The translations under genes and the position numbers were made by a program. The notes beneath the pieces are model-generated. The model was not told the origin of the DNA. It searched no databases and was given only the letters and a program-made list of their open reading frames with translations. From Lachnospiraceae bacterium (lineage in GTDB: Bacteria > Bacillota > Clostridia > Lachnospirales > Lachnospiraceae), in assembly GCA_017618195.1 (NCBI GenBank), contig JAFZUW010000070.1, positions 1 to 64,000 of the forward strand: DNA of 64,000 nucleotides, given 5' to 3'. Below, in pieces: positions 28,928-36,808 of this stretch; within the stretch, counting starts at the first letter, position 1, and every line of letters starts with the position of its first letter.

Positions 28928-29983
28928 TTATTCTTTCATTAATTCGTAGTCGATCAGTGTCATCTTATCGTTTATGATCTTTTCTTCTCCGACTCGGACA
29001 AATCCGCATTTTTCGTACAGATGACAGTTCCTCTCCTCCTGCAGGATCGTCTCCAGTTTCCATGTTGTCACTTCCGGGAACATCTCAAACGCCTTCTGGA
29101 TCGCAACGTACCCGAGTCCTCGGTTCTGGTATCTCGGCAGGATGAAGATCGGGCTGATGAACGACACCTTCTTCTCGTTCGGGTCATTATGTCCGAGATT
29201 GATCACGCCGACTCTGGCACCGTCCTTCACGATGAAGAAGTACTGACGGTTCGGCACGGCCGCACGTCTCTTGATCCGCTCAAGCGGCTCGATCGCGGGC
29301 GAGCCTTCGTCCTGATAGATCTCGTAGAGCGGCATGAAGCTCTCCACCTGCATCTGATGAACCTGTTCGAGTTCATCCTCCCTCACCGGCTCCAGCTTAA
29401 CCCTGTTGAACAGCTCGATTCCGGTCGCGTCCGGCAGATGAAAATGGTCCTTGATCATCTTTGCCACGACGTCGGGCTCCAGGTTCGTATTGTCGATTCG
29501 CAGGTAATTCGGGGACGAGATTTCTCCCTCCAGGCTCACGAGACGGTATTTGGTCTCCTCGCGGATAAGCCGGTCATCGGAGACGGACAGGTCACGCTTT
29601 GACGCCTTATTGAGAAGCCTGTTCTCCGTATGGTTACGCTGAAGCCGTACCTCGCGGTCCGCCACCAGTTCCACATAGTACACGGTTCCGCCGGTTTCCT
29701 CGAACCGTTTCGTGATCTTCTCTACATAATCCCAGTCGGACTGCAGGTCAAATGCCCACATGATCGTGAAGATCATCCCTTTGTAATTCGATTGTAAAAA
29801 CGCGTCAAAAAGAACATCCCTGAGACGCTCCACAAGCGCGCCGTCACGATATCCGAAAACCTCAAGCACCGGTTCGAACAGCATATGATTGTGAAACAGC
29901 CGGAAGTCCGTTATCTTCCGCAGTTCCTGCCCGACCGTCATCTTTCCGACGGCTCCGCTCCCGATTAACAGTACCAGATCCAT
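28928..29983 (-). CDS. P-loop kinase-like domain fused to GNAT acetyltransferase
   Basis: 351-residue two-domain protein. Residues about 1-185 form an AAA_33/shikimate-kinase-like P-loop domain with Walker A LIGSGAVGKMT near residues 5-15 and an ELVADREVRLQRNHTEN-type lid. Residues about 195-351 form a GNAT domain with the acetyl-CoA loop in PRYQNRGLGYVAI (about 290-302) and an ending YEKCGFVRVGEE. The start at 29983 has a GGAGGG site 7 bases upstream; the longer frame lacks it. It follows the 136-residue protein gene with a 4-base gap. Both domains resemble those of small-molecule-modifying enzymes, including antibiotic-modifying ones; the substrate is unknown. Confidence 0.88.
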   Translation of the reverse strand: MDLVLLIGSGAVGKMTVGQELRKITDFRLFHNHMLFEPVLEVFGYRDGALVERLRDVLFDAFLQSNYKGMIFTIMWAFDLQSDWDYVEKITKRFEETGGTVYYVELVADREVRLQRNHTENRLLNKASKRDLSVSDDRLIREETKYRLVSLEGEISSPNYLRIDNTNLEPDVVAKMIKDHFHLPDATGIELFNRVKLEPVREDELEQVHQMQVESFMPLYEIYQDEGSPAIEPLERIKRRAAVPNRQYFFIVKDGARVGVINLGHNDPNEKKVSFISPIFILPRYQNRGLGYVAIQKAFEMFPEVTTWKLETILQEERNCHLYEKCGFVRVGEEKIINDKMTLIDYELMKE

Positions 29984-29987
29984 ATTA

Positions 29988-30398
29988 TCACCCTCCGCAT
30001 TCTTTCGTCGTTGTCTGCCCGTCCTCAACAGGTTTGATCACCGCCACTTGGAAATCATCTTCGTAAATCACTTCGCCCGGCAGTTCCGTGCGCTCCGAGA
30101 TATACAGTTTCATACCGTACTTCTCTGCCATTTGCCGGTAGAAAGTCATCTCGTTCCAGATACGGTTTCCTTCGGGCGTATCCTTGAACCACGTGACCGC
30201 GCCCTGCGTATTGCCGGTTTCATAGTAAGGCGGCACCGGCAGTACCTCCTCAAAATACTTGCGGTTCCGCCAATACTCCGCAATCTCCTCCTCGTTCATG
30301 GTCTTCTCTTCAACCAGCTTCCAGATTGCCGTGAAGACGCCTCTCGGCTGCTGCGTCAAATACGCAATGTCCGTCGTGTGTACTCTGTAATACCTCAT
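29988..30398 (-). CDS. Uncharacterised protein co-transcribed with the kinase-GNAT fusion
   Basis: 136-residue soluble protein that I do not recognise. It is rich in aromatic and charged residues (RYYRVHTTDIAYL at the start, a WRNRKYFEEVLPVPPYYE segment near 63-80, and YGMKLYISERTELPGEVIYED near 113-133). There is no signal peptide or membrane segment. A CAGGAGGAAAAGG site precedes the ATG. Only 30 bases separate its start from an upstream terminator (30421-30453), so it has no promoter of its own; transcripts must pass that terminator from the promoter at 30620-30648. Confidence 0.8.
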   Translation of the reverse strand: MRYYRVHTTDIAYLTQQPRGVFTAIWKLVEEKTMNEEEIAEYWRNRKYFEEVLPVPPYYETGNTQGAVTWFKDTPEGNRIWNEMTFYRQMAEKYGMKLYISERTELPGEVIYEDDFQVAVIKPVEDGQTTTKECGG

Positions 30399-30619: not shown

Positions 30620-30648
30620 AGAATACTCCGCTTCCCGTCATATGTCAA
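30620..30648 (-). promoter_or_regulatory. Promoter of the small ORF and downstream operon
   Basis: Perfect TTGACA (30643-30648) and TATTCT (30620-30625) on the minus strand, 17-base spacer. The -35 box overlaps the last codons of the gene at 30645-31502. Confidence 0.8.
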
Positions 30649-31502
30649 CCGTTTTTTTCGTCAGCCGGCTCTTCGGATGTTTCCTCCTGCGCCTCGGCCT
30701 TCGTCTCTGTGCTTTCCTCCGCGGAGCCGGCCTTTGCCTTCCTGCGGTCCGCGATCTCGAGCGGCACCGTGATCAGAAGCATGTACGGCACAAGGATCAG
30801 CGTACACGGAATCAGATACAGGAACGGGAACGGCAGAATCTTATGGAAGATTTCCAAAAGCGGATTGCCTTCGGTCTCCACCGCGAAGAAGTAGTTCGCT
30901 TTCTCGTGAAGCCCCGTAACACGGAGCAGCATATTGATGCAGAAGATGACAAATGCGATCAGTAACGCCGTCAGAACAGCCTTCGTAAGGTCCTTAAGCT
31001 TCGGACGGAACAGACCGAACGTGACGATTGCAAATCCTTCGATCACGATCATATAGTGTGTCCCGTAATAGCCGATCATGCGGGGCAGCAGCAGCGAATA
31101 CCCGTCAAATCCGTTGCCCGGCATAAACAAAGCCATCATGGCGCCGAGCGGTCCGAGGAAGAAACAGAAGCACATCATCGGACGGTTCTTTTTGAGCACC
31201 GCAAACGGGATCAGGATCATGTTGATGTTGCAAAGCTGAAGCGGCAGTTCGCCCCACCAGTTGAATCCGCCCATTTCGGCGATGATCACGTTATAATCGG
31301 CGTCTATTGAAAGGAAATACTTATAGAACACAAATCCGACCAGCGTAACGACGCATGCCGAAATGAGGACGATCTTCTTTGTACGCTCGGATTTGCCGCG
31401 AAGCAGCAGACTCGCAATCACGAGCAGGGCGATAAAGAATCCGAAAGAGGCGATAAATACGCCGTTAAACGGTGTAATGATCCAAGAACCGAAAGGCACC
31501 AT
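30645..31502 (-). CDS. TIGR02206/YwaF-type integral membrane protein
   Basis: 285-residue protein with about seven membrane segments spread over residues 10-255 and a charged, Glu/Ala-rich cytoplasmic tail (about 257-285). The segment GGFNWWGELPLQLCNINMI (about residues 78-96) and the PGNGFDGYSLL stretch match the TIGR02206/YwaF family. The function is unknown. The ATG at 31502 is preferred over a TTG at 31517 because of a GGAG site. GrpB is encoded next upstream (61-base gap). Confidence 0.85.
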   Translation of the reverse strand: MVPFGSWIITPFNGVFIASFGFFIALLVIASLLLRGKSERTKKIVLISACVVTLVGFVFYKYFLSIDADYNVIIAEMGGFNWWGELPLQLCNINMILIPFAVLKKNRPMMCFCFFLGPLGAMMALFMPGNGFDGYSLLLPRMIGYYGTHYMIVIEGFAIVTFGLFRPKLKDLTKAVLTALLIAFVIFCINMLLRVTGLHEKANYFFAVETEGNPLLEIFHKILPFPFLYLIPCTLILVPYMLLITVPLEIADRRKAKAGSAEESTETKAEAQEETSEEPADEKNG

Positions 31503-31563
31503 GACATTTTCTCCCAAGAATAAAGTGATGTATTGAAAAAAAATAACGTAACATATCGTCGGA

Positions 31564-32073
31564 TTACAGTCCGATCTCTTTGTAAACGCTTTCGATAAAC
31601 GGAGACTTATGCTCGATGTAACGGTCGATATCGTACGGGTAAAGCGCCGCGCCTTCTTCCTTGATGCGGCTGTATCCGCGGACCGTTTCCGGATGCGAGC
31701 GAAGATAGTCGCGAAACGTCACATGCCTGTGAAGTTCGGCGGAATCCGCGGGACATACGTAAAGATGATGTTTCCGAAGGTGTTCTTTTCCGTCATACTT
31801 GAAGGCTTCCCTTCCCGGAATTCCCTGGTCTCCCTCGTGCTGATAGCCGATCCGCGCAAGCGCCTCTACCGCGGCATTCAGCTTCGAGTAATCTTCAATA
31901 ACGACATCGATATCGATGATCGGCTTCGCGGAAAGCCCGGGAACCGATGTGCTGCCGACATGTTCGATCCGCAGCGCCAATCCCCCGAGTGCGGGCTCAA
32001 GTTCTGCCTTGATATCGGCAAAATCCTTCTTCCACACTTCATTATACGGTTCCACTACAACATGCTTTGCCAT
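31564..32073 (-). CDS. GrpB family (UPF0157) nucleotidyltransferase-fold protein
   Basis: 169-residue protein with the family pattern: VEPYNEVW near the start, the IEHVGSTSVPGLSAKPIIDIDVVI core (about residues 36-60) containing the GS and DxD nucleotidyltransferase-type motifs, HHLYVC near 102-107, and F-RDYLR near 120. The fold is shared with nucleotidyltransferases; biochemical activity is mostly unknown. The start at 32073 has a GGAGGG site. It follows the fusion gene (32111) by 37 bases. Confidence 0.92.
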   Translation of the reverse strand: MAKHVVVEPYNEVWKKDFADIKAELEPALGGLALRIEHVGSTSVPGLSAKPIIDIDVVIEDYSKLNAAVEALARIGYQHEGDQGIPGREAFKYDGKEHLRKHHLYVCPADSAELHRHVTFRDYLRSHPETVRGYSRIKEEGAALYPYDIDRYIEHKSPFIESVYKEIGL

Positions 32074-32110
32074 CCTGTCCCTCCGATCCGGCTTAACCCT
32101 GATTATTTCT

Positions 32111-34261
32111 TTATGCGCGGTGTTTGGAAAGCAGGCACACGGCTTCTGCGTGTTCCGTCCACGGGAACATGTCGACCGCCTGAACCCGCTGTACCTTCCA
32201 TCCTTTGGCCGCAAACAGCCCGAGATCTCTTGCAAGCGTTTCGGGATTGCAGGAAATGTAAACGACGCGGTCCGGAGCAAGCGTGTCAACCGCCTTGATG
32301 AACTCCGGCGTGCTGCCGTTTCTCGGCGGATCCATAAACACCACGTCCGCCTTCTCGCCCTGCCCCGCAAGCTTGACCATATAGTCGCCTGCATCTGCGC
32401 ACACGAATCCGATGTTTTTCATATCGTTCCGTTTCGCGTTGCTGACGGCATCCTTTACCGCATCGCGGTTCAGCTCGATCCCCGTTACCTGCGATGCCTT
32501 CCCGGCGGCGCACATGCCGATCGTACCGATGCCGCAGTAGGCATCGATCACCTTTTCCGTTCCGCTCAATGCGGCAAATTCCATAGCGGTACGGTACAGT
32601 ACCTCGGTCTGCTCCGGGTTTATCTGATAAAAGGACGACGGCGAAATCCGGAAGCGGAGACCGCAAAGAACGTCTTCGATGTATCCTTTTCCGTAAAGGA
32701 CGATGTTGCGCTCTCCGAGCACCATGCTCGTATGCTTGTCATTAATGTTCAGAACGACTGTCGTGATCTCCGGATGGAGACGCCGCAGTTCCTTCACGAA
32801 ATTGTTCTTCGACGGCAGGATCGGGTCGGTCAGAACAAGTACGACCATCACCTCGCCGGTCTTCTTCCCGATGCGGATCAGCGCGTGCCGTAAAAGTCCC
32901 GTTCCGCGGTCTTCGTCATATACGGTATAGCGGAACGATTTCGCCAGTCCGCAGAGCGTTTTAAGGATTGCGGTTCCGGTCGCGTTCTCAATCCGGCAAT
33001 CGCTCACCGGAACGATCTTATGGGTTCCTTCCTCATAGATGCCGGTATAGATGCCCCGCTTCTTATCGCGGCCGAATACGCCGTGCACTTTGTTCCGGTA
33101 ACGCATCGGATTCGCGGCTCCGAGGATGTGCGAGGGCTTGCAGTATTTGCTGAGAAGCAGAGATACCTTCTTTGCTTTCTTCTTGAGCTGCTCTTCATAA
33201 GTCAATCCCTGATAAGCACAGCCGCCGCACTTTTTGGCAAACGAGCAGGGACCCTCGGGAATTTTCTCCTCTGCGGCCGGCTCCGCTGCTTTCTTCCCGG
33301 AAACCGCGTTTGCGGAAGCCACCGCGGGGGTTTTAACGGAAGCTCCGTCAGCCGCAGCAGCGCCCTGCACTGCCGGCTCTTTCTCCGGCGTCAGTCCGAA
33401 CAGATTCCGCTCCACGCTTTCCGTTACCGCGTTGCCGTCTCCCGGCATGTCGCAAAGATAGGTAACCACAAGGCCCCGGCTCTTCAGTACAAAACAGCGC
33501 TGGTTGTGTTTGCCGCTGATGCGGAATCCGTCGCGGTACAGCTGCGTCAGAAGTCCGTAGCCGCCTTCGCGGTTCCACTGATGCACCGAAGTCATAAGCG
33601 CGATGTACTCGGACGAAACGATCCGCTTTCCTTCATACATGCCGTCATGATACAGCATGAGACCGATCCGGCTCAGCTCGTGTACCGTGAGCTCCATGCC
33701 GGACGCCCCGTAAAACCATCCTTCCGGACAGCGTGTACACGGCGCCCCGTAGATGTGAAGCGGATGGAGAAGATTCTCCTCTAAAAAAGCCCACACGTCG
33801 CCGCCGATGACCTGTGAAAGTGCCACGCCGACAAGATATGCGGGAATATTGCTGTAATCAAAAGAACGCTCTCCCGGATTGTCAATCTTACAGGAAAGCG
33901 AATAGCGGAGATAACTCTCTTTCTCCTCTTCGGCGACACGGAACGGAAATCCCTTCACCGACATGCACATGAACCGCTCCACGCTAAGCGTCTGAAACAT
34001 TTCCGCCTGCTCGGGCGCAAGTTCGGAAACATACTGTTGCGGCAAATACGACGCAATCGGCGCATCCAGGTCGATCAGGCCCCGGTCCCAGGCGATTCCC
34101 ACGCCGAGGGAAAGAATTGTTTTCGTGCAGGAATAAAGCAGATGCCGCGCCTTCTTCGTATCTCCCCAACGGTGCGTCAGTTCATCGTTCTCGTAAACTT
34201 CCACGCCGTAAATCGCCCAGCGGTTCTGCTCAATGTCCCTGATAAAAGCCTCGAAGTTCAT
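32111..34261 (-). CDS. Beta-lactamase-fold serine hydrolase fused to RlmD/RumA-type 23S rRNA methyltransferase
   Basis: 716-residue uninterrupted frame with two unrelated halves. Residues about 1-290 are a class C beta-lactamase/penicillin-binding-like domain: Ser44-x-x-Lys47 in YSCTKTIL and Tyr136-Ser-Asn138 in FDYSNIP. Residues about 291-337 are an Ala/Lys-rich linker. Residues about 338-716 are an SAM-dependent uracil-C5 methyltransferase: Fe-S cluster Cys339, Cys345, Cys348 and Cys422, SAM motif DAYCGIGTIG (about 573), and the catalytic Cys671 in ISCNPETLARDL. The usual N-terminal TRAM RNA-binding domain is absent; the hydrolase occupies its place. No signal peptide is seen, so both halves are cytosolic. 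The ATG overlaps the stop of the upstream gene (ATGA), with AGGGGGAT as the site. The methyltransferase call is secure; the hydrolase role is unknown. Confidence 0.9.
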   Translation of the reverse strand: MNFEAFIRDIEQNRWAIYGVEVYENDELTHRWGDTKKARHLLYSCTKTILSLGVGIAWDRGLIDLDAPIASYLPQQYVSELAPEQAEMFQTLSVERFMCMSVKGFPFRVAEEEKESYLRYSLSCKIDNPGERSFDYSNIPAYLVGVALSQVIGGDVWAFLEENLLHPLHIYGAPCTRCPEGWFYGASGMELTVHELSRIGLMLYHDGMYEGKRIVSSEYIALMTSVHQWNREGGYGLLTQLYRDGFRISGKHNQRCFVLKSRGLVVTYLCDMPGDGNAVTESVERNLFGLTPEKEPAVQGAAAADGASVKTPAVASANAVSGKKAAEPAAEEKIPEGPCSFAKKCGGCAYQGLTYEEQLKKKAKKVSLLLSKYCKPSHILGAANPMRYRNKVHGVFGRDKKRGIYTGIYEEGTHKIVPVSDCRIENATGTAILKTLCGLAKSFRYTVYDEDRGTGLLRHALIRIGKKTGEVMVVLVLTDPILPSKNNFVKELRRLHPEITTVVLNINDKHTSMVLGERNIVLYGKGYIEDVLCGLRFRISPSSFYQINPEQTEVLYRTAMEFAALSGTEKVIDAYCGIGTIGMCAAGKASQVTGIELNRDAVKDAVSNAKRNDMKNIGFVCADAGDYMVKLAGQGEKADVVFMDPPRNGSTPEFIKAVDTLAPDRVVYISCNPETLARDLGLFAAKGWKVQRVQAVDMFPWTEHAEAVCLLSKHRA

Positions 34262-34887
34262 TCTGTATCCCCCTCATCAAGTGCAGGACCGGTCGCGTGC
34301 TCCAAAAGCCAGTCCACGGTCAGATCTCTTCGCATCTGCACGCGGAGCTGCTTCTCGTCATAATCAACAAGGAACTGCTCCCGATCCGTATAGCCGGTCG
34401 ATTCCATGTATGCATAAATCAGTTTCTCGAATTTGAGCGCGGTAACTTCGATTTTCTCCTTTTCCGCCACGGCATCGAGAACGGCTTCCTCTTTCGCAAC
34501 CTGAAGCGCCGAATTCTTTACGTCCTTACGGAATCTTGCTTCGGTCGTGTCATAGAAGACGTTGACGTATTCCGCGAGACTCACCTCATGATACGCGGCT
34601 TCCTCCTCGTATACCTTCATGGTCTGCTCATACACCTTCTCGGCTTCTTTCTTAACCGCTCCGCCGAAACGGGTTTTGCTGACCAGCAGGTCGGTCACCT
34701 CTGTTCCCGCAGCATCTCTGTCGGTCGCACTGTAAGTCAGGGAAGAATAATCTCCTAAACGGACAATGGACTTCTCACTCACGATATTGTCCCATATCGC
34801 ATAGGTAAGAAGTCCAAAAAATACAAGACTGAATACGATCGCAGAGACGATAAGCACTCTGTTGTGTTTCTTCCTGTCTCTGTTCAC
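34258..34887 (-). CDS. Membrane-anchored protein with trigger-factor-like C-terminal fold
   Basis: 209-residue protein with a basic N-terminus, one membrane anchor (about residues 11-32) and a mostly helical extracytoplasmic region. The segment VYEQTMKVYEEEAAYHEVSLAEYVNVFYD and the later F-LVDYDEKQLRVQMRRDLTVDWLLEHAT ending resemble the C-terminal substrate-binding helices of trigger factor and SurA-like foldases. No PPIase domain is present. A role as an envelope chaperone is inferred. It overlaps the fusion gene by four bases and follows the PfkB gene by 21 bases. A similar protein is encoded at 36832-37737. Confidence 0.7.
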   Translation of the reverse strand: MNRDRKKHNRVLIVSAIVFSLVFFGLLTYAIWDNIVSEKSIVRLGDYSSLTYSATDRDAAGTEVTDLLVSKTRFGGAVKKEAEKVYEQTMKVYEEEAAYHEVSLAEYVNVFYDTTEARFRKDVKNSALQVAKEEAVLDAVAEKEKIEVTALKFEKLIYAYMESTGYTDREQFLVDYDEKQLRVQMRRDLTVDWLLEHATGPALDEGDTE

Positions 34888-34908: not shown

Positions 34909-35835
34909 TTACTGCCTTAACAGGCTGATGATAACTTCCTTGCTCGGAGGCTTCGTCCCGGAAGTCGTGCATGCGCCGCTCGATACCGCGATTGCGTAGC
35001 GGATCACGTCGTGGAAGTGCATGTTCGAATCCAGACAGTATGCAATCGCCGCCGTCATGGCGTCACCGGCTCCGACAGGAGAAAGAACGTCGACCTTCTT
35101 CGCAGGAGCGTAAATCGTTTCGATACCGTCGGTAAATACGCCGCCGTTCGCGCCGAGGGATACCGCAACCATACGGGGACCTCTCGAAAGCAGCTCAACC
35201 GCTCTCGACTTCGTCCATGCCACCATTGCCTCATTGCTCTCGAACTCGTTGTGATAATCAAACAGATCACGGAGTTCCGCAAGGTTGGGCTTAACGTATT
35301 CGGGCTGTGCCTCCAGTCCGAGACGAAGCGCTTCACCGCTTGCATCAAGGAATACCTTACATCCGCAGGTGTGCAGCATTTCGGTAATGGTTTTATAAAT
35401 ATCGTTCGGAACGCCTTCCGGAAGGCTGCCGCTCAATACGAACATCGTTCCGGGCTTAGCGTGTCTTCTCAGCTTATCCATGAGAAGCTGCAGTTCTTCC
35501 TCGGATACCTTCGGACCGGGCTCGTCAAACTCCGTCATACCGAAGATGCTCTTCACCTTCAGGTTGCAGCGGGTTTCTCCGCCTGCTACCGAAACGAAAT
35601 CGGACATGATCATCAGCTTCTGCATGGCAACACGAATCATATCGCCGTTCGTTCCGCCGATAAATCCGCATGCCATATTAGGCTTGTTCAGTACACGCAG
35701 TGTCTTGGAAACGTTAATTCCCTTTCCTCCTGCGTCTACTGTAATGTTTTTTAATTTGTTGACACCGCCGAGTACGAACTCATCAAGTTCGGCCGTCTTA
35801 TCCACTGCGGGATTCATTGTTACCGTAATGATCAT
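34909..35835 (-). CDS. PfkB family sugar kinase (1-phosphofructokinase/tagatose-6-P kinase type)
   Basis: 308-residue ribokinase-fold kinase of the hexose-phosphate branch (FruK/LacC/PfkB). The N-terminal TMNPAVDKT and the VDAGGKGINVSKTL substrate-binding segment (about residues 33-46) and the C-terminal LSPVGAGDAMTAA anion hole with catalytic Asp (about 250-262) are intact. It could use fructose-1-phosphate, tagatose-6-phosphate or fructose-6-phosphate. No fructose PTS gene is nearby, which leaves the substrate open. A TGAGGAG site precedes the ATG; a 12-base palindrome (35848-35859) lies just upstream in the leader. Confidence 0.92.
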   Translation of the reverse strand: MIITVTMNPAVDKTAELDEFVLGGVNKLKNITVDAGGKGINVSKTLRVLNKPNMACGFIGGTNGDMIRVAMQKLMIMSDFVSVAGGETRCNLKVKSIFGMTEFDEPGPKVSEEELQLLMDKLRRHAKPGTMFVLSGSLPEGVPNDIYKTITEMLHTCGCKVFLDASGEALRLGLEAQPEYVKPNLAELRDLFDYHNEFESNEAMVAWTKSRAVELLSRGPRMVAVSLGANGGVFTDGIETIYAPAKKVDVLSPVGAGDAMTAAIAYCLDSNMHFHDVIRYAIAVSSGACTTSGTKPPSKEVIISLLRQ

Positions 35836-36004: not shown

Positions 36005-36808
36005 TCAAGCATCATTTTGTCCGTCTAATCTCAATGCGGCAAATTTTGGCACAAAATCGACGGAATATATGTATTTTCCAATGTTTTCGATTGCTTCCGC
36101 GGCTTCTTTCGCGGACAGGTCAACCAGATATCTCAGCTGCGGCATTACTTCAAAACAGGCCTCGCTTGCCTGAGCCGTCATGATCATGCTCGGAATCTTC
36201 TCGCCTTGTCCGGCAAGCGTCATCACTTCACCGACCGCCTGACGGTACAGTCTGCTGCGGCTCCGGGAAAACGTGAACCCTGCCTTCATAACGAGCAGAC
36301 ACTGTAAAATCTGATTCTCGCTTACTCCGAGATAGAACGGTGCGATCACGGCCGCAATCTCGCGGCTGCAGGCGATATGTGCCGTAACCGGATAGGATAA
36401 CGGGTCGTGTCCGTCCTCCGTGATCAGGTAGCGGTCAAGCTCCGCCTCAAGCTTTCCGTGCGTCACACCGGCTTTCGTATAAAGCTCGGGGAGCACTTCG
36501 TGAACACGGTTATCCGAGAACAGATGACACAGATACCCGTACAGATATACCAGCTGACGGTCATCTTCGGAATTACGGATCACTTCGCGCGCATTCTCAT
36601 AAAACTGGGCAAATGCCTCGTGGTGAAGGCTGCGTCCGAAATCCGCTACTTCGGCGTTTTTGAACGCCGGCTGAAAGAAAAGAATGTCCGGTCCGTGCAA
36701 TCCGATCAAAAAGTACGGCAAATGCTTCCGCACAAGCTTCCTCGTATCCGGGGTAAGAAGGCGGAACACGGTAGCCCCGACCTTTTTATGTGTATAACAT
36801 GCAGGCAT
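36005..36808 (-). CDS. Zinc-dependent phospholipase C-like protein
   Basis: 267-residue, all-helical protein that fits the zinc-dependent phospholipase C/S1-P1 nuclease-related family of Clostridia. His and Asp residues able to bind zinc are spread as in that family: YTHKKVG (about residues 5-11), LIGLHGPDILFF (about 34-45), LHHEAFAQFY (about 62-71) and YGYLCHLFSDNRVHE (about 89-104). No signal peptide is present, so a cytosolic role is likely. Substrate is unknown. Gene order places it between the foldase-like gene (36832) and the PfkB gene, with a 170-base non-coding gap to the latter. Confidence 0.8.
   Translation of the reverse strand: MPACYTHKKVGATVFRLLTPDTRKLVRKHLPYFLIGLHGPDILFFQPAFKNAEVADFGRSLHHEAFAQFYENAREVIRNSEDDRQLVYLYGYLCHLFSDNRVHEVLPELYTKAGVTHGKLEAELDRYLITEDGHDPLSYPVTAHIACSREIAAVIAPFYLGVSENQILQCLLVMKAGFTFSRSRSRLYRQAVGEVMTLAGQGEKIPSMIMTAQASEACFEVMPQLRYLVDLSAKEAAEAIENIGKYIYSVDFVPKFAALRLDGQNDA

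Follow-up and report, generated by a model that had tools for sequence, protein, structure and literature searches.

Why should a bacterium carry a serine hydrolase and an rRNA-type methyltransferase on a single polypeptide? The question is posed by one gene in the window analyzed here, a stretch of 64,000 nt that forms the beginning of contig JAFZUW010000070.1 from a Lachnospiraceae bacterium. A preliminary description of this DNA had proposed that a cytosolic hydrolase of the serine beta-lactamase fold is joined in this gene to an RlmD-type methyltransferase, and the fusion itself held up: it is conserved, and no signal peptide is visible by eye. Judged from the sequences, the product is probably a cytosolic bifunctional enzyme of one gut Lachnospiraceae genus, in which two independent activities would be tethered to each other. 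The domains themselves are known and their arrangement was not seen in the open-licence papers searched, among which no description of a hydrolase-RlmD architecture was found. Hereafter, the hydrolase half is referred to as HYD and the methyltransferase half as MT.

Two predicted catalytic halves in one frame

The frame starts with an ATG on the minus strand and runs over 716 codons without a single internal stop, as had been described, and the residue numbers given previously for Ser44 and Lys47, for Tyr136-Ser-Asn138 and for Cys671 are likewise correct (Table 1). An AGGGGG stretch ends 7 nt upstream of the start codon, and the fused gene shares its first 4 nt with the end of the preceding ORF. 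Between the two halves lies a linker, the length of which (measured as the stretch aligned to residues 285-339) varies between 15 and 56 residues among the 12 fusions that were found. In four of these 12 (G007, G010, G003, and G009) the linker contains no ATG, GTG or TTG codon, so that a separate start of MT inside the linker is impossible there; the linker of the window's gene contains two GTG codons, from which an internal start of MT is possible.

Table 1. The fused gene, its parts and its neighbors in the window, followed by domains joined to HYD, or to a second PF00144 hydrolase, at other loci (positions in the window are counted from its first nucleotide).
Feature	Position or locus	Strand	Evidence
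Fused gene, 716 aa: HYD (aa 1-290), linker, MT (aa 335-716)	32111..34261	minus	
HYD, PF00144 serine hydrolase; S44xxK47, Y136xN138, SG(K251)xxQ254	33392..34261	minus	Pfam 1.5e-14
Interdomain linker, aa 291-334, 44 residues, Ala/Pro/Glu-rich	33260..33391	minus	
MT, RlmD/RlmCD-type m5U methyltransferase without TRAM; Cys 339/345/348/422, F544, Q546, D644, C671, E706	32114..33259	minus	
Trigger-factor C-terminal-like domain gene (TrigC), upstream neighbor	34258..34887	minus	syntenic in relatives
PfkB-family kinase (PfkB), conserved upstream neighbor	34909..35835	minus	synteny
Zn-dependent phospholipase C-like protein (ZnPLPC), conserved upstream neighbor	36005..36808	minus	synteny
NUDIX partner of HYD	G001		
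HAD+NUDIX partner of HYD	L071		
GNAT partner of HYD	G021, L141		
HD partner of HYD	L157		
SAP_new25 (SAP-like) partner of HYD	L131		
DUF4298 partner of HYD	front: L124, L125, L162; behind: L116, L144		
NUDIX + second-kind PF00144 hydrolase, shortly downstream of HYD-MT	L089 7128-8618; L098 7752-9245; L138 8019-9509		

The assignment of HYD rests on Pfam PF00144, which matches residues 22-197 of the window protein with 54.4 bits against a cut-off of 27, and on the conservation of its motifs. In the set of 91 HYD domains assembled here, which contains close relatives and is unevenly sampled, S44, K47, Y136, N138, Y184, G185, Y235, G236 and G250 are present in all 91, K251 in 78 and Q254 in 90. 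Among solved structures, the nearest relatives of HYD are Lsa45 (8dc1), matched by the HYD profile at 4e-23, and NylB, the 6-aminohexanoate-dimer hydrolase, matched at about 1e-11. HYD shares the SxxK and YxN motifs with both; unlike these enzymes, it spans only about 290 residues, shows no visible signal peptide and carries a third conserved stretch, (N/S)G(K/R)xxQ. Examined by eye, its N-terminus (MNFEAFIRDIEQNRW) is devoid of a hydrophobic signal stretch, and the fused protein would be located in the cytosol. By its motifs, HYD would be a serine hydrolase or acyltransferase in which Ser44 forms an acyl-enzyme and Lys47 and Tyr136 serve as bases, presumably acting on a small amide or ester.

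Two narrower assignments of HYD were rejected. One was that of a true class C beta-lactamase, since the corresponding model (NF033085) did not match the window's HYD at 1e-3; a solo HYD relative reached 21.1 bits with this model, the cut-off of which is 415. The other was the 3-succinylated cholic acid synthase family (NF045925), the sole NCBIfam match of the window's HYD at E<=1e-3 (1.4e-23), as the score of 83.1 bits falls short of the cut-off of 800.

MT is matched by Pfam PF05958, the m5U methyltransferase family, over residues 355-713 (2.1e-21), and the NCBIfam RlmD model TIGR00479 recognizes it with 347.2 bits (cut-off 183.55). Similar to RlmD/RumA, it possesses the catalytic Cys and Glu and four Fe-S-type cysteines of the RumA kind (C339, C345, C348 and C422), which the preliminary description had pointed out and which proved invariant in all 12 fused proteins. 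The best solved relative of MT is RlmCD from Streptococcus pneumoniae (SP_1029, PDB 5xj1; m5U747/m5U1939), matched at 2.6e-77. The MT residues F544, Q546, D644, C671 and E706 align with F281, Q283, D381, C408 and E443 of RlmCD, for which contact with the substrate base, bonding to the base or action as the general base is described in the RlmCD paper (PMC6235398). Thus, all five catalytic positions of RlmCD have their counterparts in MT, and these are kept across the 12 fusions, with E706 unseen in L005, the frame of which ends at a contig edge. RlmCD differs from MT in lacking cysteines at the Fe-S positions in the alignments seen. Since the window genome encodes at least two further RlmD-type proteins (of which one has a Pfam TRAM match, 3.7e-9, and the other shows none at E<=1e-4), the fused MT is probably an additional paralogue and not the sole m5U enzyme of the genome, which, together with the N-terminal hydrolase and the missing TRAM domain, sets the window protein apart from RlmD/RumA. 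On the basis of its family, MT would belong to the RlmD/RlmCD group and act as an Fe-S, SAM-dependent m5U methyltransferase, most likely targeting a loop of the 23S rRNA. By analogy with RlmCD, Cys671 would attack C6 of the uracil and Glu706 would abstract the C5 proton. The activities of HYD and MT are expected to be independent of each other.

Three other genes on the minus strand of the window deserve mention. The GrpB-family ORF listed at 31564-32394 starts within the MT gene, and its domain covers only residues 112-272; for this reason, the ATG at 32073 is the more probable start. The ORF at 30645-31517 encodes a TMEM164-family membrane protein (PF14808, 8.8e-26) in a bacterium. Finally, the ORF at 28928-30028 is an apparent second fusion, in which a GNAT acetyltransferase follows an N-terminal half that has no Pfam match and would, by its motif, be P-loop kinase-like.

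Conservation and history of the fusion

The preliminary description had held that absence of the fusion from all close relatives would speak against it. This check did not refute the fusion: of the 22 genus genomes, 12 encode HYD and MT in one frame (in L005 up to the contig edge). The records of ten of these 12 genomes are titled Lachnospiraceae or Lachnoclostridium, and their sources include goat omasum, water buffalo rumen and yak rumen. HYD occurs in 17 of the 22 genomes and was not found in the other five. Where it is not fused to MT, it stands alone (G013, G004, and G014), behind a NUDIX domain (G001) or before a GNAT domain (G021). The surroundings of the gene are conserved as well: the order ZnPLPC-PfkB-TrigC-fused gene was retained in six of six fused relatives (G005, G011, G002, G007, G015, and G018), and MT sits after PfkB in all seven unfused genus genomes examined, a survey that left out G001, G020 and G021 and in which TrigC went undetected in G012.

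The 12 MT fusions most likely descend from a single event. In the tree of the 91 HYDs, one branch separates all 12 MT-fused HYDs from the rest with moderate support (SH-aLRT 84), and the solo HYD of G014 adjoins them (91) on a long branch. In the MT tree, the fused MTs and the unfused MT of G014 form one group (99, starred), with G014 nested within it (90). Both are quick trees with SH-aLRT values and without bootstrap. This topology fits one fusion followed by separation in G014, a draft genome with 8% contamination, and the position of an unfused MT inside the fused group implies that the fusion is not required. Purifying selection acts on HYD and on MT: in eight pairs chosen from 66 possible ones, dN/dS amounted to 0.11-0.42 for HYD and 0.05-0.14 for MT. 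The linker gave values of 0.32-0.53 in five of these pairs, was saturated in two and showed no amino-acid change in one.

The two halves do not always share the same history. In G018, HYD groups with that of the window (95, starred) and MT with that of G002 (89), a conflict that arises because the HYD segment of G018 is nearly identical to that of the window and its MT is not. Scanned in 100-nt bins, the nucleotide identity between the window and G018 (locus L066) is 94-100% in the initial 700 nt of the frame, falls to 84-88% in the following 200 nt, and lies at 49-82% in MT; upstream, it amounts to 59-73% between 500 and 100 nt ahead of the start and to 84-87% in the other bins. Likewise, G007 and G011 (L064 and L062) are 93-100% identical over a tract of some 400 nt within HYD. 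No sharp HYD tract was found by the same scan in the pairs G000/G008 and G010/G003. These sharp tracts show that, in two of the four pairs scanned, HYD segments have been traded between species within the fused gene, without MT.

HYD beyond the methyltransferase fusion

MT is not the only partner of the HYD module, since fusions to six types of unrelated domain occur at other loci. Of the 91 HYDs, 60 are solo (with no more than 60 additional residues before the domain and 50 after it), 12 are fused to MT and 19 carry long extensions. One of the latter, L149, was left uncounted, as its N-terminal extension of 258 Arg/Pro-rich residues, in which Pfam names no partner, seems to stem from a spurious frame upstream. 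Partners named by Pfam were found in 11 of the other 18 (Table 1), and seven further proteins (L146, L147, L150, L151, L152, L155, and L164) are fusions of HYD with DUF4298 according to a local model derived from this same set and not according to Pfam. In a divergent relative that is 34% identical (L072), DUF4298 is encoded by the gene immediately downstream. DUF4298 and HYD are recurrently paired as two modules, at either end or in adjacent genes. On the HYD tree, the fusions to partners other than MT need 10 changes, 7 of which are forced by starred branches, with L149 included in both counts. DUF4298 is met in other company too: it is joined to a 2-hydroxyacid dehydrogenase in the window genome, and its partner in G001 is a cyclase. 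At L167 of the window genome (contig C31, 81000-85000), the 2-hydroxyacid dehydrogenase-DUF4298 fusion is adjoined by a fusion of GNAT with a histidine phosphatase.

Fusions are not confined to this hydrolase. A second, different PF00144 hydrolase is joined to a NUDIX domain and is full-length in five of the 22 genus genomes, lying no more than about 1 kb downstream of the HYD-MT gene in G007, G002 and G009 and some 3.5 kb downstream of it in G008; in G019, it is found on a different contig. Additionally, NUDIX matches fell in frames longer than 300 aa in 23 of 73 cases in four genus genomes versus 6 of 51 in six others (p = 0.017), a comparison that was suggested by the data and that counts matches rather than genes; the window genome shows only 3 of 20 and one genome outside the genus 3 of 7. 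These examples suggest that the lineage fuses accessory enzymes readily, in line with the NUDIX comparison for the genus but not for the window genome, and in such a lineage a fusion partner alone is weak evidence of a common pathway. Among the gene neighbors of 66 of 86 HYD proteins (MT fusions excluded and near-copies left out), GNAT models were matched most often (the best of them in 10 of 66) and HAD in 6 of 66, counts that come with no background control and from which we conclude nothing.

Across the family and the class, the distribution of HYD is patchy. It was detected in 19 of 299 genomes in a family-wide sample at E<=1e-40 and in 4 of 391 in a class-wide sample at E<=1e-80. Among the 19 genomes of the family, G000 and G002, both of this genus, carry MT fusions and G134 carries a HAD+NUDIX+HYD protein, the remaining HYD frames being of 379 aa or less; the three genomes of the class besides that of the window have frames of 276-310 aa. 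Named HYD loci, which cover 80 of 208 confirmed relatives, contain 10 MT fusions, all of them in genus genomes. No relative was confirmed on viral contigs with a single-protein query, which reaches close relatives only, and a search of plasmids matched 44 records, each at less than 60% identity, the ten matches listed being at 24-28%.

Why the halves are joined

The patchy occurrence of HYD in the family and class, the variety of its partners at either end and the interspecies exchange of its segments in two of the four pairs could all be explained if it were a neutral or selfish module that moves horizontally, fuses to whichever gene is adjacent and brings little benefit to its partner. We regard this as unlikely, while granting it a real chance. 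HYD has an invariant active site and evolves under purifying selection, from which it follows that it should perform some useful chemistry for its host, and the fusion to MT apparently originated once and was then kept in 12 species.

A functional coupling of the two halves is a further option, in which HYD would stand in for the TRAM domain by docking MT or positioning its RNA, with hydrolase activity being secondary. RlmCD carries an N-terminal TRAM (PMC6235398), and the window protein has the hydrolase in this place. In agreement with the preliminary description, Pfam detects no TRAM in the window protein (E<=0.01). The retention of the fusion in 12 of 22 genomes is consistent with such a substitution, and so are the MTs found at the fused-gene locus in other members of the genus (L022-L027), in which 64-75 extra residues precede the methyltransferase; one of them, L023, aligns with RlmCD from its residue 11 on and covers the TRAM region, while Pfam identified TRAM in none of the six (L022, L023, L025 and L027 at E<=1; L024 and L026 at E<=0.01). 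However, Pfam found no TRAM either in unfused MTs of other genera (L015, L016, and L021; 381-405 aa, 49-57% identical) or in the unfused MT of G014 (L012; 384 aa, 66% identical). Loss of TRAM therefore does not need HYD, and the other part of the earlier claim, namely that the hydrolase replaces TRAM, was rejected as a simple account. Moreover, the catalytic residues of HYD, which a domain used for docking alone would not need, are present in all 91 relatives, and the linker stretch varies in length. Taken together, we consider a stand-in for TRAM to be quite improbable.

More speculative, and to be given little weight, is the idea that HYD is a recombining, general-purpose catalytic module that Clostridia tether to an rRNA methyltransferase, NUDIX, GNAT, HAD, HD or DUF4298 for one shared service. 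Were this the case, the service might be to take off an acyl group that damages or inhibits, or to acylate a common product, and the MT fusion would not be a translation enzyme but one instance of combinatorial tethering.

The preliminary description had also raised the possibility that the hydrolase acts on an RNA-linked ester or otherwise serves translation. HYD might, for example, act on such an ester or on the ribosome as a deacylase that MT brings to the rRNA. Its physical tethering to an rRNA-type methyltransferase would favor such a role, as would the occurrence of D-amino acid amidase and D-Ala-D-Ala carboxypeptidase among the matches of the HYD profile. Nevertheless, 60 of the 91 relatives are solo, and the other partners (NUDIX, HAD, GNAT, HD, SAP-like and DUF4298) are unrelated and have no obvious link to rRNA, which leaves a role in translation or on RNA esters unsupported and, in our estimation, very unlikely. 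Lastly, a stop codon or frameshift lost in sequencing or assembly, conceivable insofar as all genomes are drafts and ten of the 12 fused ones are metagenome-assembled, was rejected as having a negligible chance, given that the same fusion appears in 12 separately assembled genomes, that ten of their records stem from several projects and that the linkers differ in length and sequence yet remain open.

We thus return to the bifunctional enzyme with two independent, tethered activities as the probable reading. The benefit of the fusion would then most likely lie in co-expression and a fixed ratio of the two enzymes, or the tethering may simply be tolerated in a lineage with several fused accessory enzymes. 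Twelve species have retained the fusion while diverging, for longer than mere tolerance suggests, and some cooperation between HYD and MT may therefore exist. Its stability across part of the genus indicates that this is a real enzyme. A fusion partner is no proof of a shared pathway. At the same time, a hydrolase that gut Clostridia have joined to several unrelated enzymes provides many natural constructs with which the function of HYD can be probed.
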